Positions 21,975-55,863 of a DNA stretch of 64,000 bases are shown here, in pieces. The DNA comes from Macrolepiota albuminosa (lineage: Eukaryota; Basidiomycota; Agaricomycetes; Agaricales; Agaricaceae). Where the stretch lies: contig JAMWFC010000117.1 of the NCBI GenBank assembly GCA_027475525.1, positions 1,040,183 through 1,104,182 of the forward strand, given 5' to 3'. A program made the translations under genes and the position numbers. The notes beneath the pieces are model-generated. The model was given only the letters and a program-made list of their open reading frames with translations. It had not been told where the DNA came from and searched no databases. Positions within the stretch are counted from its first letter, which is position 1. Each line of letters opens with the position of its first letter.

Positions 21975-22143
21975 TCTCCCCCCAACTGAAAAATTGACTG
22001 TCCTCAGTCACCAAATAAGGCTACCGTTACCGTTTTTGTGACAAGTGGCCCGTGCGTTCTTGAGATTTGGTTTATAGTCCTGGCGCATGAGTTTGGACTT
22101 CGTCTCTCCTCCACATCTTTACCTGGCGCTCTATTAAAAAAAT

Positions 22144-28730: not shown

Positions 28731-28775
28731 CACCCCCCAATCAGACCGAGCTACGGTCTCGAGATAATACAACGG

Positions 28776-32150: not shown

Positions 32151-32253
32151 GGTTGGGGAAAAAAGGCGAAAAAGAAATTTCGCCTTTTAAGACGTGTTTC
32201 AGCCACAGCTGCTGACCAACTCAGCCAAGCCGCAATCGGCACTGCCGATCAAA

Positions 32254-34119: not shown

Positions 34120-36384
34120 CTGAGCTCCTGGTATCGGTGGAGAGGTAAATCCTCTCCATCAGGGTCTATGCGGCAGTCTGCCTGCACATACTCATGAGGC
34201 TCGTGAGCCTCCCCGACTACATCACTCTCAAAGTAGCGTGACAAGCAGTCTGCCACTTTGTTGAGTTCACCTTTAACATAGGTGATGTCGAACTGGTATC
34301 TCGACATGTAGTCTATCCACCGTCGCTGACACGGCGACAAGTTCACCTGAGTTTTAAAGAACTCAAGGGCCTTGTGGTCCGTTATGATGTGGATGGGGTA
34401 TCCCATCAGCTTATCCTCCCACTTGAGGAGAGCCTCGAGTATGGCAAGAGTCTCCAACTCGTGCACCACATAGTTTTGCTGGGCCGTCGTGAACTTCTTC
34501 GACATGAACCCTGCTGGGCGGCACGTCTGCCAGCTGCTTCCCTGGCCGTACATGGCCCCGACGCCTGTCTTGGACGCGTCGCAAATGAGCCATATAGGCT
34601 CGTCCCGTCTAGGGTCGATTGGTCGAATCACCGGAGTCTTCGTACAGATCCGTTTGACCATCTCGAAGCACCGCTGGTGCAACGGCCTCCAATTGAACGG
34701 TGACCCGTTCTGCGTCATGGCCATAAGTGGCCCAGTATAGGCTGTGACATTGGGCAAGAAGCTCGATATGTAGTTGACAAGGCCAACGAATCGTTGGATG
34801 TCATTGTAGTTTCGGGGCGTGCGCCACTCCCAAATACGATCGAGCTTGTCCTGATCAGGGTGGATACCCCGCTCGTCTATGACATGCCCTAGGCAGTCTA
34901 TACTCTGAGCGTAGAGCTCACATTTTTTCCACTTCAAGTACAACTTGTACTTGCGCAGTCGTTCGAATACGACTCTGAGGTGCTGCTCATGCTCCTCCAT
35001 GGTATCCGAGTAGATGAATATGTCATCTAAGTAGACGTGCATGAAACGTCCTATTACGTCTCGGAAGATAGAGGTCATTAGCCTCTGGAAAGTTGCTGGA
35101 GCATTGCAGTCTCCAATCTGCATTATATTGCTCGTGAATGTACCCATGATCGACGCAAATACGGTCTTGGGTACGTCCTCGGTGCGAATGCGCACCTGCT
35201 TGTAAGCGTCAGTAAGGTCAATCTTCGAGCGATACTTCGCCCGAGCCACGTCTTCCCAGATCACCTCTTGATCTGGTAAAGGAGTTACATCCTTTATGGT
35301 ATTGTCATTGCGCTGACGCGCATCAAGAGCTGTTTGAAGGGTTCCATCCTTCTTCGGGATGCACAATAACGGTGCAGCTTGAGCGGTGGTGCATGGGGAC
35401 CACCATTGAGCATTCAAATAGCGATTAGTCTTATCGCGTAGTTGCTCCTGGAGGGCGCACGGACAGCGCGGCAAGTGGTACTTATACTGCTTGCTCTCGT
35501 CTATGAGATTAATCTCATGGTTCACCTCCCGCCATGGCGGCAGCTCCTCCTTGGTCCCGTTGACCATGTCGGCAAATTCTTCTTGCCATTGCTGACGCAA
35601 CCGAGGAATATCTTCGGCAGCTCCTCCTTGGTCCCGTTGACCATGTCGGCAAATTCTTCTTGCCATTGCTGACGCAACCGAGGAATATCTCCTCACGAAG
35701 GCTTGTCGCCTTCTGCTTCCCCTTCATGCGTACCGGGGGAAGTACTTCCACCGTCTCTGAGGGTGGCCGAGGCGGCGGTGCATACTGCTCGTGCATTGCG
35801 AGCACCCAATTGACACTGTCATCAGGTATATGTAGTCTCAGCGGAGCACCCGCTACCGCTGCCTTACAAGCCACAAGGCTTCTTTCCTCACGTACAAGCG
35901 AGTACGCTACGGATACCTCGTCCAGGGCTGGCTGGCGATACACTGGTTTGACGGTCATCCGTCTCTGGTGCGCATTTTGCGCACACGTGGCTGCCACCAG
36001 CTCGTTCCACTCTTGCGGCATTCGGGGGTCGTATGCCCAGTCGTACTCCGGTAGGGGAGCTGGTCGCTCCCATAGGGACCGTGTGTCCCCCTCTACTGAG
36101 GCTTCCGCCTCTCGGATGCTGTCTTTCAAGTCTTCCAACTTGACTCGTGAGGACGTAGGTGGGCATACATCCACTGAGTCCTCCCGTCGTCTCGCCTTTC
36201 GATGGTGTTTGTCCGGAGGCCTTGCGCCTCGAATCTCAGGAGCGATTATTTGCTCGTTGCTCCTCTTGGAGGTTTGATACTCCTCCTCGCTCATCATTAC
36301 CACGTTGTGGTCTGCTCTCAGTCCAGGCATAGCCTGCACTTCCTCCTTCACATCCTCCACGGCCGGCACTCTGCGCCGGCCAAG
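34120..36384 (-). CDS. Reverse transcriptase and RNase H of element C
   Basis: The RT-RNase H frame runs about 35690-34011 and contains LTDAYKQVRI, the catalytic VYLDDIFIYS (about 35030) and an RNase H with DASKTGVGA and THDKALEF-like motifs ending in VADCLSRY (about 34230). Upstream (36369-35515) is a charged linker region in another frame. The junction carries a 77-bp duplication and one further single-base slip near 35690, and a TGA at about 36385 separates the linker from protease. All are probably post-insertion damage or assembly error. Confidence 0.85.
35538..35690. repeat. 77-bp period duplication before the RT of C
   Basis: Copies start at 35538 and 35615, period 77, with 76 matching bases and a mismatch at the junction. 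Confidence 0.88.
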
Positions 36385-37235
36385 TCATGGAGAGTCCTTG
36401 CGTTTCTCCGTAGTGCGATGACGTCGCAGACGATTATCAGTGTCGTCTGCTGTTGCTCGTTTGGCTGGGATCACTTTCCCATTCACTAGTACCTGACATT
36501 GGTCAAAGTCTAGTATGACTTTGTTACGCCGCATGAATGGCGTTCCCAGTATCATGTCGTAGCGATCGAAGTTCGCTACATCCATGTATTCACAGCTACG
36601 TGAGCCCGGCGTTTGGACATTCACATTTGTCCCGTACTGCACCATGGCTCGGCTCCCTACGGTGCCCAGCTGTAACGCCAATGGCGTATCCAACTCCTGC
36701 ACGGATATTCCGTACACATGGGCAAACTGGGGCATTATGCCCGATGTGGTACTCCCAGAGTCCCATAGGGTCCATGCCTTGATATTCCGTACACATGGGC
36801 AAACTGGGGCATTATGCCCGATGTGGTACTCCCAGAGTCCCATAGGGTCCATGCCTTGTGGCCATCTACGTCCACATACAAGACCAGGCACTCCTTGTCT
36901 GCTCGCTTCAATGTAGGGCGCTGCAAAGTGCCCTCTGCACGACGAAGGGTCACCTTCTTCATCCGAACCACGTTATTCCGTTTGGGGTCATTTGCGGACG
37001 GCCAATCCGTCATCGCCGCTAGGCACTCAGAGTCGCTGTCGCGACTGTAATACTCATTGTCGTAGACGTCGTCATATACGTCGACTGTGACGTACTCCTC
37101 CCCCTCCACGACCACACTCTTGGGCTCGGCGCCCGATGCCTCCTCTGGGGGCTCCTGGTCGTTTGTGGGGTTCTCTGCCTCAGACTCGGCAGATACGTCT
37201 CCGTCACTCCCACTCGCGGCTGCAGTATGTGCAGC
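36385..37235 (-). CDS. Aspartic protease region of element C
   Basis: The frame encodes an acidic linker followed by a retropepsin-type active site, LWDSGSTTSG (about 36775), and the later LGTPFM flap-side motif (about 36540). It is separated from the zinc knuckle by a single TGA at 37236-37238 in the same frame and is interrupted by a 77-bp duplication at 36704. Confidence 0.8.
36704..36857. repeat. 77-bp tandem duplication in the protease of C
   Basis: Copies 36704-36780 and 36781-36857, period 77. It duplicates the active-site coding region, so two D-S-G codon sets appear. Confidence 0.9.
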
Positions 37236-38590
37236 TCAAAGGTGGGCGCGGGGTGTATACCCCTTCCTCGGGGGTCCTGGCTTCGCAGGGCAGTTGGTAG
37301 CGTAGTGGCCTGGTTGGCCACACGCGAAACAAGTCCCCGTCTGACCTGGTGGGTTGGCCGGTTTGAAGTCCGGCCTTGATTTAGGGCGTTCTCCGTCCGG
37401 CGCCCGCTCTGGGCGTGGGCGGCTCCGCCCTTGGTTCGCAACAGGGGTCTTGCGTACAACAAACCGCGTGTTGCGGTCACGATCCAAATCGGTCTTCCTG
37501 GCCAGGAAGGTCCCCACATGCTGACCCCGTGAGGGCGTCCCACCAGGCGGTAGTCGCCTGGATCCCCCTTTGTGTCCACTCCGATGTTCGTAGTGGTTAG
37601 CAGTCTTCAGAGACTGCTCATACCGGATGGCATATGCCACAAATTCTTCCACATCGTTGACTTCTGGGGACAAGCCGTCCTCACGTATCAAATAGCGGCG
37701 CATATCCGCTGGAATGCCATCCAAGAACGTTTCGAGCATTGTATACCCGTCCGGGTATACTGCCATGTTCTGGGCATGGTCATTAAGGGTATCATAGAAC
37801 CCTTGTACTCCCAACTTCTCGGTGTACTTGGCGGACTGGAAGTCCCGCCTTGCATCCTGGAGCGTTGAGGGGTGTACGAATCGATCGTACAGTCCTGTAA
37901 GGACTCCTTTAAACGTCCAGTCATATTGGACACGATTGACGTGCAGTACTGCCCGTCAAAACCAACCCATGGCCTCTCCGGCCAAGAACTCAGGCAGAAC
38001 GAAAATTCGTTCTCGTTCCATACGGTCACCTCCGTATAAGCACATGGCAAGATGGGTGCATACATCCATCGCCCAATCTTCCAGGTCGCTGAACTTGGAC
38101 GCGCCTGTATAGGCGCAAATGTGCCTACTGTCTGCTTTACGCAGCTTCACTCCGTCTGGTAACCGTAAGGTTACGCCCAGGGCATCATCGACTACTCGAT
38201 GCAGGCAATCGTGCATGGCTTCACGATGCATTCGGATGGCTTCCCGCTGACCCGGGGATCTAGTCGCCAAATCAGCGGCATGGGGAAGTGACTTTCCCCG
38301 TCCACCTTGCGGGGGACGTCCCGAGCCTCCTCGACTGTGGGCATAATTGCCCTCGTCTCGAGGAATCGACCTAGGGCCGTCATCCCGGCCGTTACCAGGG
38401 ACATCACGTCTCGTGGCGCCATCTCGATCGAGGAAGTCTCCTCGATCATGATCGTTGCGCCGCCCTGGTTACCAGGGACATCACGTCTCGTGGCGCCATC
38501 TCGATCGAGGAAGTCTCCTCGATCATGATCGTTGCGCCGCCCTGACCTGGAGAAGCTTGATTCTCCTGACCCTGCGTGACGAATTGACAA
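37236..38590 (-). CDS. Gag capsid and zinc knuckle of element C
   Basis: The frame begins in an Arg/Gly/Asp-rich stretch (about 38570), then capsid-like helices (KFSDLEDWAMDV, FLDGIPADMRRYLI). It ends with a canonical C-x2-C-x4-H-x4-C knuckle (CFACGQPGHYATNC, about 37330-37290). One in-frame TGA at about 37956 interrupts it, in a context fitting CGA to TGA. A 77-bp duplication at 38391 shifts the printed frame. Confidence 0.8.
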
Positions 38591-39888
38591 CGCATCTCGT
38601 CAATGGGCTTAGTGCCCTCAAATACGATGCCCTGATCGTCTATAAGGGACTGTCCCTTAGTCCTGAGGTCGCCATTGCGCATACGTTGGTACGCGACTCT
38701 GTCGCTCAACGTTTTGGCCATGGGCACATGCGGCATCACAGATGCCTCGCTTTCCACTTTGAGCACAGTGCTATCGTGCCCATCCGGACCTGACATATCT
38801 GTCCTACGGTCACGGTTACGCATGTGCGGGGGCTCCTCACGCCACCCTTGTCCTGCTGGAGTATAAAAAGTACTCACCGGTCTTACTTCGGGCACTTCTT
38901 GCGCCCGTGCTAGTGCCTCCACTAGTTCGATTCCGACGTCTTGATTGCGTCGTGCCGAGCATTCCTCGGACATGTGGCTCCAGGGGGTCGAGACCCCCGA
39001 TTGCCGTGTGGCCTTACGCTGCACATACATTTGCAGCTCCATAGTGAGCACTCTCACCATCAAATCAGTATATTTCGTACTGAATACATTGGGCACTTCG
39101 TGCCCTTGTCGCCTAAGTGCTACTATATGGGCGGACGCGTAGCGCTCGAGTCGCGCTTGGGTGGTGTATTTCATCACCTCTGGGTGCAAGTCCCAGAACA
39201 CCTGCAAGCGCACGGTGTATGCGGTTTTCAGCCGCTGTTCCTCTGCTCCGACGTCGTTGTCACTTGACGACTCCATCACCTTCTCTGGAAGCTCTACAAC
39301 CTCCGGAGCTTCCTCCACTGCTGGTGTGCGCGGAAATCGATCTTCCACGCTGTATCCTTCAGGCCTTGCAGCCTCCTCCGGTACCTCTTCTAAGCGGGCT
39401 TCCGCTACTTTAGAAGGCATTGGGCCCGCTGTGGACCGCCTGGTCCCACTGCTCCGGCTCGCAGGGAGGGTTCTCCCAGTCCGTACTGACGACTCGGCGT
39501 CTCCTGGGGCGCCATAGGCGCCGGTTGACTGTCGGCCGTCCTGCGGGGGTCCTTTGGAAGCCAATCGGCTAGACCGTTGCGGTCCTCCTGGCAACTGCGT
39601 AACTGGGGGCGTTAATCCCCCGGGCATCTTGTCTTGGAGGCGTTGCGGACCGTCCTGCTGTGAGCTTTCAGCTCTCCGGGCCTCGCTCTCATTCCCGGCT
39701 AGGTCGGTACTCTGACCTCGGTCTCGAGCCTTGGGTCTTACCTGACCCGCATTGGACGCTGACGCGTCCTGGGTGTCTGCTGGGTCTCCCCGTAGGTCGT
39801 GGGCATTTCGCCCGCCGTCAGTGGGCGCTGCAGGTATGGGATTACTCATCGATCCCCTGTTTGAAATTTGCATGGTGTGGCTGTGCAA
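38192..39888 (-). CDS. ORF1 of element C, N-terminal gag-related protein
   Basis: About 540 codons once the duplication at 38391 is collapsed. It starts near 39888 or at an internal Met (MSNPIPAAPTDGG). It is Pro/Ser/Arg-rich with a central helical region (about 39250-38950) and overlaps the capsid frame by up to about 400 bp in a -1 relationship. It may be a separate first protein or the N-terminus of Gag joined by frameshifting. Confidence 0.6.
38391..38544. repeat. 77-bp tandem duplication in gag of C
   Basis: Copies 38391-38467 and 38468-38544, period 77, no mismatch noted. Confidence 0.9.
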
Positions 39889-39980
39889 GAAGCTCGAGAA
39901 GCTGATAGAGTTCTGTCAACGAACTCAACGACTGACGTCGGATGCTAGGCAATAGATCCTAGCTGGCGGATTCAAAAAAA

Positions 39981-40215
39981 TGTAACGAAGTTACGAAGTT
40001 TAGAGAGCTTAGTGTGCACACACGACACTGAATCAGACCAGACCGGTCTATTGACAATGTAGTATACACAAAAAATAAGCTGCTTTGTAAGCAGCTGGGT
40101 AACTAATTATATACGAATGTAAATAATATTATATTATAATAAATATAATATAATATTTACTACTATACAGTAAGTAAAGCTATGTGGCCAACGCCACATA
40201 GCGGACTACGCTACA
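39981..40215 (-). repeat. 5' LTR of element C
   Basis: 235 bp, same as 28496-28730 except for one base (A here, G there) in an otherwise matching sequence. The leader just inside (39980 leftward) starts with a run of seven T on the sense strand. It has no TGG-type tRNA primer site, so the priming mode is unresolved. Confidence 0.9.
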
Positions 40216-40535
40216 ACTGTAGCCTGAGGAGCGGCAAGTCCAAGAACGGCAGGAGCCGAGGCTCCGGGAAGAGTAGTAAGATAAGTATCGGTAGACGCAA
40301 TATTTTGAAAGGACTCAGAAGCGGTAAGGTACAAGTAGGCAAGAGAGGAGTCGGTAATGTTTTGATTTTTCTGGGGAGGCTCTGCGTTGGTAGCGGGTAA
40401 AGTAGTTAAAACATCTTTGTCAAGAAAAGCGGTAGACATAACATTTACAAGACCAGTTGAATGGTCATATTCCAGCGTTAGCGCCACATCTCCGTGATCG
40501 TCGCCAATCACCTCCTCAATGGTCTGTGAAAACAC
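40216..40535 (-). CDS. Start of pol of element B, cut off by element C
   Basis: The frame begins in the overlap with gag (GTG-TTT-TCA, about 40535) and runs to the ACTGT target site of C. It matches the pol start of D (IEEVIGDDHG...LGLAAPQAT) and joins, after the insertion, to the open frame at 28495. Confidence 0.78.
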
Positions 40536-42895
40536 CTGTGGGGTTGTTCGTTGGCGTGTTGGTCGGTAAACTCCGGTGGCTTAGCGAGGGCGCCTTTTCG
40601 TTGTCCCCTAGGGAACGTTGGCACTGTTCGTCGGATTCCGGAATTAGGGTCGCTGATTGTGAGGGTCGTTTCTTCGTCGGTAACTGTCTTGACGACTGAT
40701 CGCGCCAAGACGTCGAAGGGTCTGCCGAGTAGTAAGTCGTATGCTGGGGAGCGTAATATGTGGATCTGAAGATAAAACGTAATGTCGCCAAGAGTGCAGG
40801 GCACGTTCTTGGCGAGGCCTAGGGATCTGTCTACCGTACCGTTAGCGCTCTGCATGTTTAGTATAACGGTAGGGTCATAAATGAGACCCAAATCATTAGC
40901 GACTTCTGCTGCCATAGAAATGATTTGAGACCCGCTATCCACGATTGCCTCTACCTCGTGCTTGTTGTCGACGGTTAGCGCGACGGAGCGAATAGCGTGT
41001 GATTCTTGAGCGACGGTAAGAATGGCCGGGTCTTCTCCATGGTCTACTGACCTAAGATAGGTCTCCACAGGATCTACAGAGGTGGCGTTAGCGATGGGGT
41101 CGGCAGGAGAGTCTTCAGTATCCAGCGAGTCGACGGTAACGGAAAACCTGGGAAGCGCGTCGTCGAGGTCCTCGATCTCGGCAACGGTTGTCGCCAAGGG
41201 GCGTCGAGGAGTAACAGCGGTCTTGACCTGATTGCGAACATCGGGAGCAATACTACAAAGTTCTTCTACAGATAAGGTGATGGCGGTTTTCATAATGCGG
41301 TTGAAGACGTGATTTGATTTTTCGATGTCGAAAATTGGCGCGGTAGGTCGGTAGCCACCCTCAGGACGTTTCTCGGGAGCGGCAAAATTTCGTTGTGTGA
41401 GTGCGTGATAACGGTCGGGAATCCCTGAGTAGGGATGGAGAGGCGGCAAAGGCGGTTCGGGAGTGGTAGCGGACGACGATGGTTCTGGAGCAGTAGCAGG
41501 GGTAGTGGCAGGCGGTGCGGGAGGAGCAGGTGTCGGTAACTTGCTAGCAGGAGGCATTGGCTTATATCCTTTGAGAGGTTGTTTGGGCTGCTTAACTTCA
41601 ACCCCATCAAAGACCTGATTCTTAAGCGAATCCAACTCCTGCTGTAGCTTGGCGATACGCTCTTCCCGCGAGAAAGTAGGGCGGTCGCCAACGCTGTCGA
41701 AGTGTAAGACCTCGTGGATCATTTGCTGTTGGGTCGCCTGTTCGGGGTCGGGGTTGGCGTTGCCAGATAGCGTGCCGGTAACGATTTGTCCTGGATTGCG
41801 CCTATGCCATTCATCAACTCGCTCCTGGAAGGACTTCTTGTCCGGGTAGTTGGGGATGGTGGCGCCACTGGTAAGAACTATCTTGCCGTCGATAGCCCTT
41901 CTAATTCTCCCTTGCCGAATATAATTCTCGAGAGTAGCGCAGCGTCCTCTAGTCATAGTATGGCCAATTTCCCCACAGAAGTGGCAAGGGCCAGGTGCGG
42001 GTGCGTTAGCGGGTCGGTTAGCAGTCAGGTTGGTGGTAATCATAGTTTCGATGCGAGTCATGGCGGACGCGACAGCAGCGGTAATGGCAGCATTGAGCTC
42101 CTCTTTCTTAACGAAGTCGGTAGTGGGAGGCGGGATGGGAATAATACCGATGGTTTGCTCAGGTGGTGGGCTTGTCCTAGCGCGCTGCAGTCCAACGCCA
42201 GTGTCCGTTCCCTTGAGAACCCATTTACCGGCTTCAAAGACGTCGGCAACGTTATAGGGCTCGTCAGGGTGATGGGCCTGATGAACTATCTCTAGGCGAC
42301 AAGCAATACGAGTCCACAGTGATGTCGGGATGCCTTGCTGAAATAGGCGACGTTCCTCGTTGATATAGAGCTTGCCGTTTTGTACTAACCACCTAGCGAT
42401 CTTCTGGAACTTGCGGTAATACGTGGAGAATGCGCCAAGCGACGATGTGCCACTGTCGAAAGATTCCTGAACTAGTTTCTGGAGCTCGTTTACCGTGTAT
42501 CAGGTAGCCTCTTCTGCGCCAGGGTACAACTGGATCACTGCCGTCTTCCAGTCCTTATACGAAGCGCCGTGGGCTGGAACGGGTGGGGCGGCAGGGACAA
42601 AGGCGGCAAACTCGGTTAAACCTGTCCATGTCTCTGCCATGTCATATGATACGTATCTTGCCGCGTACTCCTTCATCTGTGTGTGGTCGGTAATGTTACA
42701 ATCCCTGAATAGATACTCTAATTCCTTGAAATATTGGGAGAGCTCCCGTGGCTTAGACTCGTCCCATTTCGGTGCCGAGAAGTGGTTGCGTGGCGGCATG
42801 CGCTGGACTTGTGGGAGAGCTCCCGTGGCTTAGACTCGTCCCATTTCGGTGCCGAGAAGTGGTTGCGTGGCGGCATGCGCTGGACTTGTTGTTCC
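40508..42895 (-). pseudogene. Gag-protease of element B, nearly intact
   Basis: Homologous to the 770-aa frame of D. It is open from the TGA near 42500 down to the stop at 40508, and open again upstream to the MEQQ start region near 42895. The TGA replaces a CGA codon of D, a CpG transition. Two 77-bp duplications at 42735 and 42981 disturb the upstream part. Zinc knuckle (about 41975) and protease DSG (about 40937) are present. Confidence 0.82.
42735..42888. repeat. 77-bp tandem duplication in gag of B
   Basis: Copies 42735-42811 and 42812-42888, period 77. It spans the presumed gag start region. Confidence 0.9.
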
Positions 42896-42980
42896 ATGGC
42901 GACGGTGGTAACGAGTTCGGTTAGCGGTAGCGGGGAAGGAGTTCTAGAAATTGGCGACGGGGTAAGGGAAATGAGTTGAG

Positions 42981-43134
42981 AAAGAGGCGTTAGCGGAGTA
43001 ATGGGAGTGACTGGTTGCGGTACGGTAAATGGCGACGCTAAGGGGTCGTCGGCGCTAAAAGAGGCGTTAGCGGAGTAATGGGAGTGACTGGTTGCGGTAC
43101 GGTAAATGGCGACGCTAAGGGGTCGTCGGCGCTA
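42981..43134. repeat. 77-bp tandem duplication in the gag leader of B
   Basis: Copies 42981-43057 and 43058-43134, period 77. Confidence 0.9.
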
Positions 43135-43334
43135 AAGTCGAGAGAATGCGAGAAGAGATCAGGAAATTTGTCTACAGTGGCGTTCTGTAGTTCCTGGGCA
43201 AGAGAGAGACCCGGTAAGGCACCAGGTGGTTGTGGAGTTGATGGGTGGGAAGGAGCAATGCCTTCTGCCGACTGCTCTAGCAGACGGCGCCTACGCTGGA
43301 GACGGGTTTCTGGCGGAATTCTGCCCTAGAGATC

Positions 43335-43351
43335 CCTCGCGGTGGGCTCCA
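43335..43351 (-). other. Primer binding site of element B
   Basis: Same 17 bases as in A, on the minus strand, 3 bp from the 5' LTR. Confidence 0.65.
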
Positions 43352-43354
43352 ATT

Positions 43355-44227
43355 TGATGACGTCCAAAGTTTGGTCAGTAACAAATATAGGTATAGTGTT
43401 ACCATACCAATTGGTTGCGTTGGGCGCGCTAAAAGTGTTGGGGGAGTCCCGGGCAGGTCCCAGAGAACGCGTCTGTGAAAAAAAAGGGGAAAAGTCGGTA
43501 ACGGGTGTCGGCAAGTGTAAAGCGCTAAGGTAAAGCGCCTATGAAAGATGCGGTAAGTGAACACGGTAAGGATAGCGGCAAGAACACGGTAAGCTTAGCG
43601 AGGTCTAAGCGTCGTAGATGCCTGCCGTAGCTGCAAGGCGCGAAGAGGTCGAAGGTTGGCGAGAGTGAGAGAGGAGTAGGAAACTCTGGTCTATTCTGCT
43701 TGTTATTGTACAAGTTGGTAAGTACTTTTATACTACAAAGGGTTCGCCGTCGCCAGTGGCCAAAGAGCGGTAAACTAGAAAATTTTACAAGGGGTAGCTC
43801 CAACTGTTTCCGATCCCTGCCATCCATTCAAGACCCTTAGCGGCGCCAGGCGGCAGATCGCGACGCTAAACCATCAATCCATCCTTCTTTTGTCTATCAA
43901 CATACCTAAGCAGTGTCAGACGCCAAATTGGTGGCGCTAAGCGATGTCAGCTGCCAAGGTCAAACGCCAAGCTGTCTGTCGGTGTTTGACAGATCATCAA
44001 TCTTCTCGCTAAGCGCTGTCGTCAGTGACTGATGCCATCTGTCAGTTGTCATTCCTGCTGCCATCGGCGCTATCATTGATCGGATCTGCTTCTTGCCGTG
44101 TCCGGCCGTCGGGAATGGCTTAAAATAGGTAAAACGTGTGCGCCAAGTTCAGAACGAGTGCGGCAAGGTTTCCGGAACCGGTGCCGAGCCTGCCGTTGAT
44201 GCACCTAACCTGTATAGGGTCCTATCA
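43355..44227 (-). repeat. 5' LTR of element B
   Basis: 873 bp. It differs from the 3' LTR at several sites, for example CGCCC against CGTCC near the start. Many differences are CG to CA or TG changes. Confidence 0.9.
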
Positions 44228-44430: not shown

Positions 44431-45383
44431 TGATGACGCCCAAAGTTTTGGTCAGTAACAAATGTAACAATTGTGTTACCGTACCAAGAGTGTGCGTTGG
44501 GCGCGCTAAAAGTGATTTGAGGAGTCCCGGGCAGGTCCCAGAGAACGCGTCTGTGAAAAAGGTGTAAAGTCGGTAACGGGTGCCGGCAAGTGTAAGCGCT
44601 AAGGTAAAGCGCCTAGGAAGAAGCGGTAAGTGAAGACGGCAAAGGTGAGCGGCAAGAGCACGATAAGCTTAGCGAAGTTCTAAGCGTCGATAATGCCTGC
44701 CGTAGTTGCAAGGCGCGAGTATGTCGAGTGTTGGCGAACGTCTGCAACTGCCGATGAGTTTTGACGTTGCCGACCGTAGCGTAAATGAGCTCTTGAGCGT
44801 AAGGGAGACTGAAGTAAGTGGGGGAAACTCTGGTCTATTCGTCTGCTGGTCCATTGTACAAGTCGGTAAGTACTTTTATACTACAAAGAGTTCGCCGTCG
44901 CCAGTGACCAACCATCGCCAAAGTGCGGTAAACTGGAAAATTTCATAGGGGTAGCTCCAACGGTTTCCGATCCCTACCGTCCTTGGAGGACCCTTGGCGC
45001 CACCAGGCGGCAGATCGCGGTACTAAACCATCAATCCATCACCCTTCTGCCTGTCAGAACACCTAAGCGACGTTGGGCGCCAAATCGAGACGGTAAGCGG
45101 TGTCAGACGCCAAGGTCAAACGCCAAGCTGTCCGTCAGTTTTTGATAGATCATCAAGCTTCTCGCTAAGCGCTGTCATCAGTGACTGATGCCATCTGTCA
45201 GTTGTCATTCCTGCTGCCGTCGGCGCTATCATTGATTGGATCTGCTTCTTGCCGTGCGCGGCCGTCGGGAATGGCTTAAAATGGGTAGAACGCATGCGCC
45301 AAGTTCGGAACGAGTGCGGCAAGGTTTCCGGAGCCGGTGCCGCGCCTGCCGTTGATGCGCCTAACCTGTATAGGGTCCTATCA
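44431..45383 (-). repeat. 3' LTR of element D
   Basis: 953 bp, TGATGACG...CCTATCA on the plus strand, followed by the polypurine tract (plus-strand TCTCCCCCCAAC, 45384-45395). Confidence 0.92.
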
Positions 45384-45552
45384 TCTCCCCCCAACTGAAA
45401 AATTGACTGTCCTCAGTCACCAAATAAGGCTACCGTTACCGCTTTTGTGACAAGTGGTCCGTGCGTTCTTGAGATTTGGTTTATAGTCCTGGCGCATGAG
45501 TGTGGACTTCGTTTCTCCTCCCCATCTTTTCCTGGCGCTCCATTAAAAAAAT
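45384..45552 (+). promoter_or_regulatory. Leader between the 3' LTR and antisense gene start (element D)
   Basis: These 169 bp are well conserved in B (21975-22143) and A (56728-56896). They hold the polypurine tract for sense-strand replication. They also form the 5' leader, and possibly part of the promoter, of the antisense gene, whose ATG follows an A-run (AAAAAAATATG). Confidence 0.5.
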
Positions 45553-47976
45553 ATGTCTTTTCGAATTCCAACTCCGCCTCCAGTACCGTCCCGTGAGGCT
45601 CAAGACGCCGCCTCTGCCTACATCGTTAAGGCCAACAATTTCCTTAAGCGCATCGATGGTGTGGGCGCGGAGGCGCCTACAAACCTTGTTATTGCCGTAA
45701 TGAAGTTATTGGAACGTTGGTACGAAGTCCGTGTCCTTGGCGTAGGCTGGGACAGGGAGATAGAGGTGCGGGAGTGGTGCCGATCGCGGTACTTGGATCA
45801 TCGTGGCGCGGAGTGGCTAGCGCCCTTTGCTCGCTTTGTAAGTACCTCCAGTTCTTGCCGTGTCGCTAGCTGATCTAGTTGCCAGGCGCCTCCTCCCGTC
45901 CCAACGATCGAGGACGAGTTGGAGGACATTCTGTCCGGTGCCTTGCCGATGACGGTAAGCGCGCCTGCGGCAGAGTGAGTACTCCTAACCCATTCTTTTA
46001 ACTTAGCTTTGGTCTGATCTGTCCCCCCACAGCAAACAAGAGGTGCTGGCGCCCTTGGCGCGCATGCAGGTGGAGGAGGAGATCGCGGCAAGGCAGGAGG
46101 CGACTTCTCAAGACGCCCGCGAGATCACCAGGGCGTTAGAGGAGCGAGAGCGGGTTGCCGCGTTGGCCGCAGAGATGGAGGAGGTTGCCGCAGGGAGGGT
46201 GCCTGCCGCCGAGAGGCAGGCGGTAGCAGAGGGATCCGGCAAGGGTGGTCGCGCCGGCAGTGCACAGAGCCCAGCACTGCCGGCTAGCAGGAAGGGCTCC
46301 CCACTAAAGCCGGGAAAGGCTTTAAAGAAGGTGAGTTTTGGCCTATTCTTGCCGCTGCCGTGCCACGCTAACCACTGTTTCCAAGTCTCGCAAGGGCAAG
46401 GCCCCCCAGTACGCGGTAAGTGTTCTTTTTGGACCTAGGCGGTGTTTACTAACTTGTGTCTGGAGGCGCCAACGCAAAGTTCCTTCGACGACAAGGAACT
46501 GAAAGGTTTACTTTTGGCGCGTCGGGAGGAGGCGGTCCTTGACGAGGGGCAGGAGGCCGGGGTTGTCATGGAAGAGATGAAGGGGAAGAAGACTGTTTCC
46601 CTAGCGACCCGGCAGGCGTTCAAGGAGGCAAGGGGAGCGGTAAGTGACTTTTCTGTCTTTATTCTTTTTCTGACTCTTTGCGCTAGTGCGACAAGTGCTG
46701 GGCCGATAACGACCCGGAAGGCTGTTGGTTCCCGACTGGGGCCCAGCCGTGTTATCGTTGCGGCGCCTTGAAACGCGCTTGCACTATCGACGGGGCGAAG
46801 AGTCGCGAGCGTGGCGGCGCGCCAGACGCTCTCGTCGAGAAGACGTTTTCCCGCGCGGTGTTGGTAAGGAGGGCGAGGGAGTTTGTGGAGGGGCAGAGGA
46901 AGAAGGTGGCTGCCGGTGGCATGGCAGCAATTGGACGAGCCTCCTTGGCGTTACCGACGCGCCAAGGGGATGGGACGGAATCTGTCGGCAATCGAGGCGC
47001 CGGCGAGCGCCAAGGGACTTCGGTCCCAGAGAAACGACAAGCCCCTTCCCCAAGCAAGGGGAAGGGCAAAGCAAAGCGCCCCCGCGTTGTATCGTCGTCG
47101 CCTTCCCCCTCGCCAACGCCTCGCGATACCGAGATGGCCGACCTGGAGAAGGCGTTGGCGGCTAGTCGCCTCCCGCCTCGTGACACAGAGGCTGGCCCCA
47201 GCGGTCTCTTGTCGCCTATTCACTTGGCGGCAAGATCTCTTGGCGGGGAACAGGAGGAGGGAGAACGGGAAGCGGTTGGCGATGCGGCGCCTCGGGACGA
47301 GCTGGAAAAAGCCCCTGCCGACATCGAGATGGGGGAAGAGAAGGCAGAGGGAGCGGCAACGGGAGGAGATGAGGACGCTGAAGGGGAGGAGGACGAAACC
47401 TTGGCGACGCAGCGCCAAGGTGACGAGGAGATGGTAGCGGGAGAGGGCAAGGGAGAAGGGGAGGCAGCGGCAGAAGTCGCCCGGGAGGGGCCTCAGTGGC
47501 GTTGGCTGCCGCCTTACGGCAACGTCGCCCCTTGGGAGGTGTCAGATCCTGAGGACGTTGTAGGGCTGGAGCCAAGGCGTCCCGTGATCGCCAGGGTTAA
47601 TCCTGCCTGGACCCCGCAGCCGCAGCCGACAGTGACTGGCGACGCTTTCCAGTGGCTGGGCCAGGACCTCGTTTACCCGGTTATAGCGCTCAATCCTCGC
47701 GACATGTTGGAGCGCTATTCCCGGAGAGCGGCAACGATGGAGGCGACTATGAGTCGGGAACGGGAGCGAGTGCGCGGTCAACTGATGGCGCTGCGACTGC
47801 GCTATTCCAACCTGGGTCGTAGCCTTCGCGTGCTTCGCGATTACCAGGGGGATTGCCAAGCAGCCATGGATTGGCAAGCTGCCAATAACATTCTTCCTGG
47901 CGACCTTCTCCCCCTTCGCGACTCTTCCTTGCCGGTATCTGACGATTCCCTGTCATTAGAGGACGATAGCGAGTAA
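45553..47976 (+). CDS. Antisense six-exon zinc-cluster gene of element D, intact
   Basis: Exons 45553-45837, 45886-45974, 46033-46330, 46386-46415, 46466-46639 and 46687-47976 join in frame to 721 aa. All five introns are GT-AG and 47-58 nt long, like host introns. Exon 1 encodes a conserved helical domain (RWYEVRVLGVGWDREIEV). Exon 3 encodes a coiled-coil segment rich in Arg, Glu and Ala. Exon 6 opens with six cysteines spaced C-x2-C-x8-C-x8-C-x2-C-x6-C, a variant of the fungal Zn2Cys6 cluster. Basic nuclear-signal-like stretches, a long Glu-rich acidic region and a C-terminal helical domain follow. The strand is opposite to gag-pol. A nuclear DNA- or chromatin-binding role is inferred, not shown. 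The acidic region could activate transcription. Confidence 0.78.
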
Positions 47977-48342
47977 ACGGACCTTAGCGTAGATAGGCCG
48001 TTTTTGTATATTTTTCCTTTTGTTACCGTCTCATATATATTTGTCTTGCCCCGAGAGCCAAGAAAGTAAGGCAAAGAGAAAGCAAGCGGTAAGTATTCGA
48101 AAGTAAGAGGAGTAGTAGATGTGGGACTTAGACAAATTTTTGAGAAAAGGGAAACGCTCAGTAAATCATCATGGCGAAAAACCCTTGGCGAGATTTGCGC
48201 AATGCGCTAAGCGTTGGCGACACGCTAGCGCTGCGACTTGACTATGTAAAGAATTGTCTGTTGGATATAGTACAGTAAGTATCGGCAAGAGAGATAAGTA
48301 AGATAGGTAATAGAAAAAGAGAGCTCATCAATATATTCTTTT
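47977..48342. other. Convergent spacer of element D
   Basis: About 366 bp between the antisense stop and the pol stop. It is similar to the spacers in A and B and non-coding. Confidence 0.45.
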
Positions 48343-51300
48343 CTAATCATTTTCTTCTTCTTCAACTAAAGTCGGCAAGTCATCATCGTCCAATAATTCG
48401 GTTTCTTCAAGTTCTCTAAGCTTGGCGGTGTCGATGTCTAGCGCTTCAAGCGGCAAGTCGATTTGTTCCCTGGCGAGATACGGTAATAGGCGAAAAGCGG
48501 CAACAGGTCGATGCAGTACTGAACCATCTAATTCACAGAGCACGTAAGCGCCTCCACGGTTACGGGAGATAACTACCAAAGGTCCAAGATAGCGCGGGCG
48601 CATTTTCTTGTTGTAAGAGGTCTCGATTTTGGAGTTGCGCATGATCACTAGCGCTCCTCTCGGGAAGTTGTAATCTTTGATAGTGGCGCTATGCTCGGTT
48701 TCGAATCGCAGGGCTGCTTGGCGACGAGCGCTAAAGACTACCTCGTGGAGTCGCTCCAAATCTTCTTTCCTTCGCTGGAGATCAATTGCTCGTCTGGCGA
48801 TAAGGTCGGTAGTCGCTAAGATACTGTTGGGCGCTGGCTGAAGGTAGGTCGCTTCTATAATGTCGGCAGGGAGTAGCGGATGGGTGCCAGTAGCCGCGTA
48901 GTAAGGAGAACAACCCATGCGCTTACGAATAGTAACTCTTTCCGACCAAAATACTGAGTATGTCGCTTCACTCCAACGAGACTCGTCGCCATCGACTGCC
49001 TTGAAGAGCGCTTGCCGAACGTCAAAGTGTGGTCTCTCTACCAGGCCATTGGCGCGCTTGTTGTAGCCAGATACTCGAATATGATGGCTTGCCGAACGTC
49101 AAAGTGTGGTCTCTCTACCAGGCCATTGGCGCGCTTGTTGTAGCCAGATACTCGAATATGGTGTATATTGTATTTCTTGGCGAGGTAAGTTAGCGCTTTG
49201 ATAATGGGCGCACCGTTATCCGTGACGATTTCTCTTAGCGCTCCCCAACGGCAAATGACGTCCTCAAATAGCCACTTGGCGACCGCGTCGGTATTTTCTC
49301 TCTGAAGCATTCGAAATTCAGGCCAGTGGATTAGCGAGCAACGACCTTGAATGATGTACTTGTAGCGACCAGACTTGGGCATATGCATGGTATCGACGTA
49401 GATTTTGCTGAAGAGGGGAGCTGGCGTTGCAACGGTTGGCGGTATGAGCACTTGGCGTGTCTGTTGGATTTGGCAGAGGTGGCAAGTCCTAATGTACCAG
49501 GCGATGTCGGCACTAGCGTGTGGCCACCAGAAGCGTTCTAACAGGGAAGCTCGCGTAGCGTACAGACCTCTATGTCCTAGCTCGTCATGCATGGCGCGTA
49601 AGACTCGTAAGCGACTTTCTGGCTTGATGATCAGCTTGTGAGCGCCATCTCGATTGCGTCGCCAAAGGCGGTTGTCGGTAAAGAAGAAGTGGGTGGCATA
49701 TCGGATAAAGGTCGCGTACTGTTCGTCGGTAAGGTCGGCGGGTCGCTTAAGGTCTTGTAGCCATTGTTCAACGAGTAACAAGCGACTGTCTTCCGCCTTT
49801 GCCTTGGCGGATCGGGGAACGGCGTCGTAGGTCAGGTTTTTGCTGTCTTCTCTTAGCGACTGGGGTTCCTGTACGACTTTTACTGGAGGCAAGTCTTGTT
49901 TAAGGATGCTTGCCGTGTAGAATGTGAGGGGTGCGCTAAAGGTCTCGGGGCGGTAAGGGACTATGGGATGTAAAAAGATACTGGTAGGCTGTTGCCGTCG
50001 TAGTAGGGGGATTGGCTGTTGTATAAGGTGCACGAAACCATGGAGTCGGTCGATCCAGTCCTCGAAATCGCTATCAGCCTGTGGATCCACTGCCGGGTCG
50101 CCAGGCTGTCGTGGTCGCCTAGAGAGTCCATCTGGGCCGTGGAAAGAGCTCTTGACGTGTACCAGCTCAAAGTGAAACATGAGGATGGCGACTACCCACC
50201 GGTTCATGCTAGCGGATGGCTGGATATCGGGATTCTGCAGCATGCCTTTGATGTACCTAGCGTCGACCTCAACAATAAGGTTCCGCACGCCAATCAAATA
50301 CATCTTTAGCGACCGGAAGGCTTTGAAGAGTCCATAGAGCTCTAGCTTAGGCTGACTGTAGCGAGACTCTCTGTCGTTTAGCGTGATGGACCCAAAGCGG
50401 TTGTAACGTCGCTGTTTCCGATTGTCGCTAAGGCACTGGCACAAGAAGTAACCAACGGCAATGTACGAGGTATCCACCGCCAAGATAACAGGGTCGGCAG
50501 ATGTATAATCGATGGGGACTAGGGGCTTGGCGTCTTGTAAGGCTTTTACTAAGTCGCGTTGGGCAGTGACCTGGTCTGGCCCAAATTCGAAGGGCTCGTT
50601 AGCGCGGGTGAGTCGGTTAAGGGCATGTGCGCAATGGGCAAAGTTCTTGACGAATATTCTAAGAACGCCAACGGTACCAAGAAAGGCGCGAACTTCAGAT
50701 AAGTCGCGGCAAGGACCCCAGCGCTCCAAGAGTGCTAAGCGAGACTCGTCGGGAATGCGACCGCCGGGAGTGCAGATGTGACCAAGTATTTTGAACCTTG
50801 GCGCACAAAGAAGGAGCTTGTGACCGCTAAAGGTGCCACCGCTATACTTCATACGTTGGAGAACTCGATTGAGCAGCAAGAAAAACTCCCATAGCGCTAA
50901 GCGAATGTTGGGGTTCTCCGGATGGGTCGTCGGTAAGCCGTTAACGAGTCGCCAGTCTTTGGGACCTTTGACGCCAACGTCATCAATGAAGCTAAGGACA
51001 TGGTGCGGTATCTCGGGTTGGAGGATGAATGTGATGTCGTCATGGAATATAGGGACTGAGTTTGTCCAGCCCATCGGCAAGGTGACTAGGCGCAGTGCGC
51101 CAAACGGAGTCTGAAATGTGGTGAGATCTCGGGAAGAAGGGTGTATCAGACGTTCGTCGTAGCCAACGTAAAGGTCAAGGGTGGCGCCACAAATGCGCCC
51201 GGCAAAGGACTCGGCAACGTGGTCAGGGAAAGGCGGTACGCCAGAGTGTCGTATTGTAACTCTATTTAGCGGCTCGAGACTGTGAACTATGCGTAGATTG

Positions 51301-52245
51301 CCGTTCTTTTTGAGGACACAAAACCAACGAGAGCGGTAAGAACTATTGGAGGGTTCGTAAACGCCAGCCTGTATTTTGGTCCTAATGATCTGGCAGACCT
51401 CGGCTTCGATCCCAGGCGGTAACGGTCGGTTGTGCTCAGTCCACGGTACGTGAGGAATGGTCGGGATGACGACAGGCGGGAAGAAATCTGTACGTAGACT
51501 GCCGCGTTCTGAGTCCTCCCAAGCGAAGGCTTTGTCTTGCTTAGCGACGAGATCGGTAAGGACGTTCAACTCATCTTTGGTCAAAAATCCTGTGTCGTGC
51601 TCCTTGGCGAACTGCTGCTGGCGTTCTGCGGTAAAACGTCCTGTGGGCTGAAAGGGTGGCGGATTCGGTGATAAGGCCGGCATGTCGGCAAGAGGGTCGC
51701 CAATGATCTGGCGCTCGATTCTGAAAGTCTCGGGAGAGTGCGTAGCGATGGGTTTTGTTTTAAGCGCAACTGGCTTATATTTCTTTTTAACTTGAACCCC
51801 TTTCCTTTTGGGAGCGTTAGCTTGGTTATACACAGATGTGGAAAGGGGAACTGTAGCCTGAGGAGCGGCAAGTCCAAGAACGGCAGGAGAGCGTTAGCTT
51901 GGTTATACACAGATGTGGAAAGGGGAACTGTAGCCTGAGGAGCGGCAAGTCCAAGAACGGCAGGAGGCGAGGCTCCGGGAGAGTGGTGAGATAAGTATCG
52001 GTAGACGCTATATTTTGAAACGATTCAGAGGCGGTAAGATATAAGTACGCTAGAGCTGAGTCGGTAATATCTGGGTTTTTCTGAGAAAGCTCAGCGTCGG
52101 TAACGGTCGAGGAAAGTAAAACTTCTTTGTCAAGATATGCGGTAGACAAAATATTTACAAGACCAGTTGAATGGTCATATTCCAGCGTTAGCGCTACATC
52201 TCCGTGATCGTCGCCAATCACCTCCTCGATGGTCTGTGAAAACAC
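48343..52245 (-). CDS. Pol of element D (RT, RNase H, integrase)
   Basis: The pieces 52245-51826, 51833-49038 and 48918-48343 form one pol frame apart from two 77-bp duplications (51812 and 49010) and one missing base near 51980. RT has FIDD, RNase H starts AVDTSYIAVGY, the integrase has its zinc finger and D,D,E core, and the tail is acidic (EEEEND). The pol frame lies -1 relative to gag-protease and overlaps its end by 28 nt. The overlap has a TGT-TTT-CAC context where a Phe tRNA could slip back on TTTT. Confidence 0.87.
49010..49163. repeat. 77-bp tandem duplication in the integrase of D
   Basis: Copies 49010-49086 and 49087-49163, period 77, one mismatch near the end. It cuts pol into two printed frames. 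Confidence 0.9.
51812..51965. repeat. 77-bp tandem duplication at the pol start of D
   Basis: Copies 51812-51888 and 51889-51965, period 77. Confidence 0.9.
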
Positions 52246-54530
52246 CGGTGTGGAGGCTCGTTGGCGTGTTGGTCGGTAAACTCTGGGGGCTTAGCGCGGG
52301 CGCCTTTTCGTTGTCCCCTAGGGAACGTTGGCACCGTTCGTCGGATTCCGGAGTTGGGGTCGCTAATTGTGAGGGTCGTTTCCTCGTCGGTAACTGTCTT
52401 GACGACTGATCGCGCCAAGACGTCGAAGGGTCTGCCCAGTAGTAGGTCGTAAGCTGGTGAACGTAAGATGTGGATCTGAAGATAAAACGTAATGTCGCCA
52501 AGGGTGCACGGCACATTCTTGGCGAGGCCTAGGGATCTGTCCACCGTACCGTTAGCGCTCTGCATGTTTAGTATAACGGTAGGGTCGTAAATGAGGCCTA
52601 GATCGTTAGCGACTTCTGCTGCCATAGAAATAATCTGAGACCCGCTATCCACGATTGCCTCTACTTCGTGCTTGTTGTCTACGGTTAGCGCTACTGAGCG
52701 GATAGCGTGCGATTCTTGAGCGACGGTAAGGATGGCGGGGTCCTCTCCATGGTCTACAGATCTAAGGTAGGTCTCCACTGGGTCCACCGAGGTGGCGTTA
52801 GCGATGGGGTCGGCAAGAGGTTCATTGGTGTCGGGAGCGTCGATGGTAACAGAGAAACCAGGAAGCGCGTCGTCGAGTTCATCAACTTCGGCAACGGCTG
52901 TCGCCAAGGGTCGTCGAGGAGTGACTGCCGTCTTGACTTGGTTGCGGACGTCGGGAGCAATACTACAAAGCTCTTCTACTGATAAGGTAACATTGGTTTT
53001 CATGATGCGGTTAAAGACGTGGTTGGATTTCTCGATATCGAATATTGGCGCAGTAGGTCGGTAGCCACCCTCAGGACGTTTCTCGGGAGCGGCAAAGTTT
53101 CGTTGTGCGGGAGCGTGATAACGGTCGGGAATCCCGGAGTAGGGATGGAGAGGCGGCAAAGGCGGGTCGGGAGCGGTAGCGGACGACGGTGGTTCTGAGG
53201 CAGGAGCAGGGGCAGTGGCAGGAGGTGCGGCAGGAGCAGGTGTCGGTAACTTGCTAGCGGGAGGCATTGGCTTGTATCCTTTAAGAGGTTGTTTAGGCTG
53301 CTTAACTTCAACCCCATCAAAGACCTGGTTCTTTAGCGAATCTAATTCCTGCTGCAGCTTGGCGATACGCTCTTCCCGCGAGAAAGTAGGGTGGTCGCCA
53401 ACGCTGTCGAAATGTAGGACCTCGTGAATCATCTGCTGTTGGGTCGCCTGTTCGGGGTCGGGGTTAGCGTTGCCAGATAGCGTGCCGGTAACGATTTGTC
53501 CTGGGTTGCGCCTATGCCATTCATCAACTCGCTCCTGGAAGGACTTCTTGTCTGGGTAGTTGGGGATGGTGGCGCCAGTGGTGAGGACTATCTTGCCGTC
53601 GATAGCTCGTCGAATTCTACCTTGGCGAACGTAATTCTCGAGGGTAGCGCAGCGTCCTCTAGTCATGGTGTGGCCAATTTCCCCACAGAAGTGGCAAGGG
53701 CCAGGTGCGGGTACGTTAGCGGGTCGGTTAGCAGTCAGGTTGGTGGTAATCATAGTTTCGATACGTGTCATCGCGGAGGCGACAGCGGCGGTAATAGCAG
53801 CATTGAGCTCTTCTTTCTTAACGAAGTCGGCAACAGGAGGCGGGATGGGAATGATACCGTTAGTTCGCTCAGGGGGTGGGCTCGTCCTAGCGCGCTGCAG
53901 TCCAACGCCAGTGTCCGTTCCCTTGAGAACCCATTTACCGGCTTCAAAGACGTCGGCAACGTTATAGGGCTCGTCTGGGTGATGAGCCTGATGAACTATC
54001 TCTAGGCGACGAGCAATACGCGTCCACAGTGAAGTCGGGATGCCCTGCTGAAATAGGCGACGCTCCTCGTTAATATAGAGCTTGCCGTTCTGCAGAAGCC
54101 ACCTAGCGACTTTCTGGAATTTGCGGTAATATGTAGAGAATGCGCCAAGCGACGATGTGCCACTGTCGAAAGATTCCTGTACTAGTTTCTGTAACTCGTT
54201 TACCGTGTATCGGGTAGCCTCCTCGGCGCCAGGGTACAGCTGGATAACTGCCGTCTTCCAGTCCTCATACGAAGCGCCTTGAGCTGGAGCTGGCGGTGCG
54301 GCAGGGACAAAGGCGGCAAACTCAGTAAGACCTGTCCACGTCTCTGCCGTGTCATACGATACGTATCTTGCCGCGTACTCCTTCATCTGCGTGTGGTCGG
54401 TAATGTTACAATCTCTGAATAAATACTCCAATTCCTTGAAATACTGGGAGAGCTCCCGTGGCTTGGTCTCGTCCCATTTCGGTGCCGAGAAGTGGTTGCG
54501 TGGCGGCATGCGCTGGACTTGTTGTTCCAT
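52218..54530 (-). CDS. Gag-protease of element D, intact
   Basis: 770 aa from MEQQVQRMPP to the stop at 52218. The N-terminal two-thirds is a capsid-like helical region (ELEYLFRDCNI, WKTAVIQLYPGA). The zinc knuckle is CHFCGEIGH with the last Cys seven residues on (C-x2-C-x4-H-x6-C, an unusual final spacing). A Pro/Ala-rich linker and a retropepsin with IVDSGS and LLGRPF motifs follow. The frame is open for roughly 340 nt upstream of the first ATG, back to just past the primer site, with no AUG in it. Translation may start at a non-AUG codon, or simply at this ATG. Confidence 0.88.
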   Translation of the reverse strand: MEQQVQRMPPRNHFSAPKWDETKPRELSQYFKELEYLFRDCNITDHTQMKEYAARYVSYDTAETWTGLTEFAAFVPAAPPAPAQGASYEDWKTAVIQLYPGAEEATRYTVNELQKLVQESFDSGTSSLGAFSTYYRKFQKVARWLLQNGKLYINEERRLFQQGIPTSLWTRIARRLEIVHQAHHPDEPYNVADVFEAGKWVLKGTDTGVGLQRARTSPPPERTNGIIPIPPPVADFVKKEELNAAITAAVASAMTRIETMITTNLTANRPANVPAPGPCHFCGEIGHTMTRGRCATLENYVRQGRIRRAIDGKIVLTTGATIPNYPDKKSFQERVDEWHRRNPGQIVTGTLSGNANPDPEQATQQQMIHEVLHFDSVGDHPTFSREERIAKLQQELDSLKNQVFDGVEVKQPKQPLKGYKPMPPASKLPTPAPAAPPATAPAPASEPPSSATAPDPPLPPLHPYSGIPDRYHAPAQRNFAAPEKRPEGGYRPTAPIFDIEKSNHVFNRIMKTNVTLSVEELCSIAPDVRNQVKTAVTPRRPLATAVAEVDELDDALPGFSVTIDAPDTNEPLADPIANATSVDPVETYLRSVDHGEDPAILTVAQESHAIRSVALTVDNKHEVEAIVDSGSQIISMAAEVANDLGLIYDPTVILNMQSANGTVDRSLGLAKNVPCTLGDITFYLQIHILRSPAYDLLLGRPFDVLARSVVKTVTDEETTLTISDPNSGIRRTVPTFPRGQRKGARAKPPEFTDQHANEPPHRCFHRPSRR

Positions 54531-54891
54531 AGCGACTGTGTTGGCGAGTTCGGTTAGCGGTAATGGGGAAGGAGTTCTAGAGACTGGCGACGGGGTAAGA
54601 GAAATGAGTTGAGAAAGAGGCGTTAGCGGAGTAATGGGGGTGATTGATTGCGGTAAGGTAAAGGGCGACGCTAAGGGGTCGTCGGTACTATAATCGAGGG
54701 AATGCGGGAAGAGATCAGGAAAAGCGTCTACAGTGGCGTTCTGTAGTTCCTGGGCGAGAGAGAGACCCGGTAAGGCACCAGGTGGTTGTGGAGTTGATGG
54801 GTGGGAAGGAGCTATGCCTTCTGCCGACTGATCTAGCAGGCGGCGCCTACGCTGGAGACGGGTTTCTGGCGGAATTCTGCCCTAGAGATTC

Positions 54892-54908
54892 CTCGCGGTG
54901 GGCTCCAA
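54892..54908 (-). other. Primer binding site of element D
   Basis: Same 17-base site as in A and B, on the minus strand, close to the 5' LTR. Confidence 0.6.
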
Positions 54909-54910
54909 TT

Positions 54911-55863
54911 TGATGACGCCCAAAGTTTTGGTCAGTAACAAATGTAACAATTGTGTTACCGTACCAAGAGTGTGCGTTGGGCGCGCTAAAAGTGATTTGA
55001 GGAGTCCCGGGCAGGTCCCAGAGAACGCGTCTGTGAAAAAGGTGTAAAGTCGGTAACGGGTGCCGGCAAGTGTAAGCGCTAAGGTAAAGCGCCTAGGAAG
55101 AAGCGGTAAGTGAAGACGGCAAAGGTGAGCGGCAAGAGCACGATAAGCTTAGCGAAGTTCTAAGCGTCGATAATGCCTGCCGTAGTTGCAAGGCGCGAGT
55201 ATGTCGAGTGTTGGCGAACGTCTGCAACTGCCGATGAGTTTTGACGTTGCCGACCGTAGCGTAAATGAGCTCTTGAGCGTAAGGGAGACTGAAGTAAGTG
55301 GGGGAAACTCTGGTCTATTCGTCTGCTGGTCCATTGTACAAGTCGGTAAGTACTTTTATACTACAAAGAGTTCGCCGTCGCCAGTGACCAACCATCGCCA
55401 AAGTGCGGTAAACTGGAAAATTTCATAGGGGTAGCTCCAACGGTTTCCGATCCCTACCGTCCTTGGAGGACCCTTGGCGCCACCAGGCGGCAGATCGCGG
55501 TACTAAACCATCAATCCATCACCCTTCTGCCTGTCAGAACACCTAAGCGACGTTGGGCGCCAAATCGAGACGGTAAGCGGTGTCAGACGCCAAGGTCAAA
55601 CGCCAAGCTGTCCGTCAGTTTTTGATAGATCATCAAGCTTCTCGCTAAGCGCTGTCATCAGTGACTGATGCCATCTGTCAGTTGTCATTCCTGCTGCCGT
55701 CGGCGCTATCATTGATTGGATCTGCTTCTTGCCGTGCGCGGCCGTCGGGAATGGCTTAAAATGGGTAGAACGCATGCGCCAAGTTCGGAACGAGTGCGGC
55801 AAGGTTTCCGGAGCCGGTGCCGCGCCTGCCGTTGATGCGCCTAACCTGTATAGGGTCCTATCA
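54911..55863 (-). repeat. 5' LTR of element D
   Basis: 953 bp with no difference from 44431-45383 seen by eye. It contains a TATAAAAG box in the sense (minus) orientation at about 55355-55362. Confidence 0.92.

Follow-up and report, generated by a model that had tools for sequence, protein, structure and literature searches.

HBZ of HTLV-1, a bZIP factor, is the product of a spliced antisense gene of a retrovirus, and in fungi the gene brtn, said to have been described by Zhao et al. in 2011, is reportedly an antisense gene of the Boty-like Gypsy elements of Botrytis cinerea. Antisense genes lying between pol and the 3' long terminal repeat (LTR) are known from plants and from a single fungus (PMC7264820, PMC11963269, PMC8365987). 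The plant Gypsy elements Grande (gene23), RIRE2 and Retand (TRP28) carry antisense open reading frames (ORFs) in this position, GENE23 being a nuclear protein and TRP28 a predicted DNA-binding one (PMC7264820, PMC11963269), and in HTLV the antisense promoter is located in the 3' LTR (PMC7264820). The authors of a review call for a search for spliced antisense transcripts (PMC7264820). Here, we describe the antisense gene of a Ty3/Gypsy-type retrotransposon, element D, in a stretch of 64,000 nt (hereafter the window) of the Macrolepiota albuminosa genome, whose assembly comprises 100 Mb in 129 contigs. This gene is almost certainly real, antisense, intron-bearing and under selection; as judged from the comparison of its copies, it is a spliced protein gene antisense to gag-pol and maintained by strong purifying selection. 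It is set apart from the known antisense genes by its five conserved introns, its unassigned protein family and its type structure.

The gene occupies positions 45553-47976 of the + strand, and its model, rebuilt from the sequence, consists of six exons separated by five GT-AG introns (48, 58, 55, 50 and 47 nt, in order) and encodes 721 aa. The antisense ATG at 45553 is located 170 nt from the end of the 3' LTR at 45383. The rebuilt model thus recovers the gene of the original prediction, which had given 721 aa, six exons, GT-AG introns of 47-58 nt and a distance of about 170 bp from the 3' LTR. The splice sites were picked by eye, and automatic searches for open splice chains give near-equal variants with other acceptors; the comparison of copies upholds the model. 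Its parts are as follows.

45553..45837, + strand: exon 1, helical N-terminal domain (gene model and copy comparison; helices modelled in the relative P0001)
45886..45974, + strand: exon 2 (gene model and copy comparison)
46033..46330, + strand: exon 3 (gene model and copy comparison)
46386..46415, + strand: exon 4, 30 nt (gene model and copy comparison)
46466..46639, + strand: exon 5 (gene model and copy comparison)
46687..47976, + strand: exon 6, with the cysteine cluster, basic stretches, acidic region and long C-terminal helix (gene model, copies and AlphaFold2)
46687..46782, + strand: six-cysteine cluster, C-x2-C-x8-C-x8-C-x2-C-x6-C, at the start of exon 6 (sequence)

The evidence for selection comes from the other copies in the genome. 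A translated search with the ORF of D exon 6 scored 103 of 1190 candidates, and 71 of the 104 listed exon 6 matches have no internal stop. The best 30 loci (L009-L038, L010 being the window's own copy D) were fetched and aligned; the whole frame with all five introns is intact in 22 of them, D included, a share that does not stand for the genome as a whole, since these loci were chosen by similarity to D exon 6. All five GT-AG pairs are retained in 26/30, and the eight broken genes are those of L023, which is partly masked by N, L024, L026, L030 and L034-L037. Among intact copies, exon lengths vary by multiples of 3 only and intron lengths by at most 6 nt. A subfamily with a displaced acceptor has an exon 4 of 27 nt, against 30 in D. 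For the 21 distinct coding sequences (CDS) from intact loci, the median ratio of nonsynonymous to synonymous divergence (dN/dS) is 0.10 at a median dS of 0.59 (210 pairs), away from the value near 1 that the original prediction had named as speaking against it, and the antisense frame, whose absence from related elements had been named likewise, is present in related copies. When these CDS are read in six frames, +1 is the sole frame free of stops, and the variable sites are distributed as 136/99/453 over codon positions 1/2/3; the -2 frame, which mirrors the third positions of +1, has a ratio of 0.20, yet contains at least 8 stops per copy. In windows along the protein, dN/dS is lowest around the cysteine cluster (0.02 for residues 241-300 and 0.04 for residues 301-360) and highest, at 0.59, in the linker of residues 181-240. 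For the same pairs of 45553-47976 and its copies, the introns were also observed to diverge less (p 0.25) than the synonymous sites (dS 0.59).

The intron positions persist beyond the closest copies. Eleven loci outside the best 30, mostly more divergent, were modelled, and seven of them share the intron positions and phases of D. These seven (L043, L056, L064 and L067-L070) all give intact six-exon models, with 66-92% amino-acid identity to D over the aligned positions, and the introns fall at D residue/phase 95/0, 124/2, 224/0, 234/0 and 292/0. A distant group (L039-L042, L046-L048, L050, L054, L057, L058 and L063) belongs to the same protein family, with identity of the cysteine region at about 40%; in most of its members, the leader that separates the 3' LTR from the gene is conserved only in its first 36 nt, the end with the polypurine tract.

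The persistence of introns in a retroelement can be explained by the strand through which it multiplies: replication uses the RNA of the gag-pol strand, in which the introns run backwards and therefore stay unremoved. A pattern combining the end of intron 5 with the cysteine motif has 376 occurrences in the genome, and the reversed control pattern has 0; the spliced junction of exons 5 and 6, the one junction covered by the pattern search, also has 0 genome occurrences. The contrast of 376 borders with 0 spliced junctions fits an element that would multiply through its gag-pol strand, in line with the earlier claim that reverse transcription retains the antisense introns.

An antisense coding region between pol and the 3' LTR was found in many copies, these loci having been chosen by exon 6 similarity; in L009-L038 the end of the integrase follows the gene, antisense to it, in 30/30, and an LTR end lies just upstream of it in 28/30. 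In element D, the flanking parts are the following.

44431..45383, - strand: 3' LTR relative to gag-pol (identity to 54911-55863)
45384..45394, - strand: polypurine tract TTGGGGGGAGA, adjoining the 3' LTR (assigned from position and composition)
45384..45552, + strand: leader from the 3' LTR to the antisense ATG, a TTTATA box followed by a C/T-rich tract (putative core promoter and 5' untranslated region)
48343..48918, - strand: C-terminal part of the integrase, the end of pol, adjoining the 3' end of the antisense gene (weak SH3_Tf2-1 match, under the curated cut-off)

The TATA-like TTTATA box, followed by a C/T-rich tract, is found in all 18 aligned leaders and lies outside the LTR. Among ten copies compared with D, one has a leader of 89% identity and the other nine have leaders of 92-97%, even with exon segments at 48-80%. 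The leader may thus be the antisense gene's own core promoter. The plant antisense ORFs lie where the D gene does and run in the same direction; like it, they are conserved, occur in most copies and go with a long region between pol and the 3' LTR. The promoter of Grande, situated upstream of its antisense ORF and its own, and the nuclear or DNA-binding role suspected for the plant proteins can likewise be compared with the D gene (PMC7264820, PMC11963269). A difference lies in the introns, of which the D gene has five, conserved, whereas the article on Retand has 0 occurrences of the word 'intron' in its main text (PMC11963269). As in HBZ, a spliced antisense gene is placed at the 3' end of a retroelement, a likeness that holds here for the gene structure and not for an RNA; the D gene differs from HBZ by its five introns, by the lack of a bZIP match in Pfam and by a conserved promoter-like box outside the LTR. 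Boty, too, is a Gypsy element of a fungus, in which brtn is reportedly an additional antisense gene.

The conserved flanks enclose a gene that is far more diverged. In the DNA of the ten copies, identity to D is 90-97% for the integrase end and also 90-97% for the LTR piece, except in L064 (72%), whereas exon segments fall to 48% and introns to 36%. Among 12 sequences, the median dS is 1.19 for the antisense gene versus 0.25 for the integrase end, the gene being higher in 64/66 pairs, and the synonymous divergence among protein types reaches about 2. Some copies are mosaic: L056 combines a D-like first part with an end resembling L043, and four places, L013-L016, share with D an identical 527-nt block (47490-48016) and differ from it on both sides, with the caveat that the assembly may have drawn reads of other copies into shared blocks such as this one. 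These data point to a gene that exists as old types and undergoes recombination. A more speculative proposition, which we regard as improbable though worth stating, casts the antisense gene as a control module that can be exchanged and that defines the type, several ancient protein types being kept and reshuffled by recombination within an otherwise uniform element that shares one promoter leader, in the manner of phage immunity regions, which likewise differ within a common backbone. If this were true, the cell would harbour types of the element that control themselves or one another via a spliced nuclear protein.

The relatives found for the antisense protein are 25 predicted proteins, all from Termitomyces and at least 13 of them from one strain. 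They accord with the Agaricomycete setting of the original prediction and, together with the gag relatives of D, suggest a host that is Termitomyces or closely related to it. The hypothetical protein P0001 (C0993_009416), known as a predicted protein alone, belongs to the same family, with 39% identity over 97% of the length; the six-cysteine pattern is common to most family members, some of which are partial. AlphaFold2 models N-terminal helices in P0001 (residues 6-104, block values of the predicted local distance difference test, pLDDT, 62-91) and, for D exon 6, one helix that follows the cluster and another, of 63 residues, at the C-terminus; the acidic part is not resolved. Pfam-A was scanned with D exon 1 and most of exon 6 to E 0.1, with whole exon 6, P0001 and P0010 to E 10, and with 12 Termitomyces relatives. 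The TRP28 family of Retand, PF04195, has no match in D exons 1 and 6 or in the 12 relatives. Zn2Cys6 proteins follow the spacing C-x2-C-x6-C-x5-12-C-x2-C-x6-8-C; the D protein resembles these fungal factors in its six cysteines with C-x2-C pairs, its basic residues, acidic region and long helix, and differs from them in its spacing and in a first loop that is acidic, not basic.

We tentatively propose, as the most likely role though at slightly less than even odds, that the antisense protein is a nuclear nucleic-acid-binding regulator of its element. According to this proposal, the 170-nt leader that precedes the ATG would hold a promoter of the gene's own, and the transcript made from it would be spliced in the manner of a host gene and translated into a nuclear protein. 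The N-terminal helical domain and the long C-terminal helix may serve for binding to itself or to a partner, the nearly invariant six-cysteine cluster may bind both a metal and nucleic acid, and the stretches rich in acidic or in basic residues could act as in a transcription regulator. The conserved leader or the LTR would be the likely site of action, at which the protein would tune the transcription of genomic RNA.

Several points weigh against such a role or against parts of the evidence for it. The basic stretches are the one feature from which a nuclear step would be argued, and the data do not favour the leader or LTR as the target over integration or host defence. Conservation of the leader may partly serve reverse transcription, because it holds the polypurine tract, and four of the eleven loci modelled outside the best 30 (L045, L049, L059 and L062) lack a clean five-intron model. 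The antisense protein received no assignment in Pfam or NCBIfam and no convincing sequence match in the PDB, and fold searches with its models gave no convincing match. The zinc-cluster label of the original prediction was not borne out: the first loop is x8, not x6, which departs from the Zn2Cys6 spacing, PF00172 (Zn2Cys6) has no match in exon 6, P0001 or P0010 up to E 10, and 'zinc' itself was inferred. Profile searches and structure prediction, which that prediction had named as a check of the exon 6 cluster, were carried out; the former gave no Pfam match and the latter models the cysteine cluster at pLDDT <50.

Among the alternatives to a regulator of transcription, the protein might be a nuclear tether that carries the integrase complex to chosen chromatin, as the chromodomain does in other fungal Gypsy elements. 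The cysteine cluster and the partner-binding helices would suit a tether, and the Pfam scan found no chromodomain in the pol pieces of D, while the element nested at 28.5-40.2 kb of the window matches Chromo weakly, with a score short of the curated cut-off; the absence from D is itself uncertain because its integrase end matches known families weakly, and we consider a tether rather unlikely. Slightly more doubtful is a protein that counters host silencing (RNA interference, methylation or heterochromatin), the divergent types then reflecting an arms race. It would be consistent with a gene diverged into old types between a leader and an integrase end that stayed uniform, and with the one linker that evolves nearly freely (the ratio of 0.59), and a suppressor would be useful because the antisense transcript would itself provoke double-stranded RNA (dsRNA). 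That the antisense RNA, and not the protein, is the working product, by interfering with transcription or by controlling the genomic RNA through dsRNA, appears very improbable: the transcript would overlap the genomic RNA over about 2.4 kb in its 3' part, and non-coding retroelement antisense RNAs are known (PMC7264820), but an RNA role would not need strong codon-level constraint, frame-keeping indels and introns at constant phase. Equally remote is a host gene recently captured and merely carried along, for although the gene resembles an ordinary fungal gene with short introns, its cysteine-cluster border has 376 occurrences genome-wide, the architecture is common to the loci examined, selection continues between copies, its relatives are the Termitomyces proteins drawn in large part from one strain (at least 13/25), and protein relative searches, reaching close relatives only, showed no single-copy host orthologue with the same introns.

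The element that carries the gene has the other traits of a Ty3/Gypsy retrotransposon: two LTRs with TG...CA ends (44431-45383 and 54911-55863, 953 nt each, identical letter for letter) flank gag-pol, and a polypurine tract adjoins the 3' LTR. The order of domains also fits, with the protease in the gag ORF and RNase H ahead of the integrase H2C2 domain; the core of the reverse transcriptase (RT) had no match in the Pfam scan of the D ORFs. The relatives of D gag are from Termitomyces in 31/34 cases. The primer-binding region after the 5' LTR (54860-54910, - strand) contains TTGGAGCCCACCGCG.

44431..55863, - strand: element D, whole, Ty3/Gypsy-type (gag-pol on the - strand; LTR pair with protease, RNase H and integrase zinc-binding domains)
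52218..54530, - strand: ORF of gag and aspartic protease of D (domain matches)
49038..51833, - strand: pol ORF of D with RNase H and integrase H2C2 domains (Pfam domain matches)
21102..44227, - strand: element A, split by a nested element at 28496-40215
18743..20054, - strand: remnant of the antisense gene of element B, reduced to exon 6 and the last part of exon 5 (alignments)

The original prediction had placed the antisense gene in elements A, B and D, which proved correct in full for D. In element A, all six exons of the gene (+ strand, about 22.1-24.6 kb) join in frame across five GT-AG introns, with two in-frame stops in exon 6; in element B, exons 1-4 are missing, the remnant is fused directly to an LTR at 20054/20055, and exon 6 is open (translated-search match C110:1058928-1060100). 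The element nested in A is a Gypsy element with end repeats of 235 nt and with RT, RNase H and integrase. The alignments show D itself to be inserted into the antisense gene of one more copy, C, which is broken (44220-44391 and 55976-57831).

On paper, the gag-pol of D is broken up by 77-nt duplications. Fourteen such two-copy tandem duplications, of unrelated sequences, are present in the window, at 12710, 20503, 24617, 29208, 31647, 33680, 33966, 35538, 36704, 38391, 42735, 42981, 49010 and 51812, all in its repeat-rich part, and they also occur in L065 and other loci. In 71 sequences (358 kb, some overlapping), near-perfect tandem pairs numbered 86 with period 77 and 6 with period 25, with no other period from 25 to 250. 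The fixed length, the lack of a motif by eye and the near lack of shared end bases suggest uncollapsed 77-mer assembly overlaps rather than biology.

For the biology of these elements, the comparison of many copies yields a spliced antisense protein frame under selection, whose five introns the life cycle of the element would protect, and it illustrates a way for a retroelement to possess an ordinary gene with introns. The diverged and recombining types provide a natural series in which to test what such antisense proteins do.
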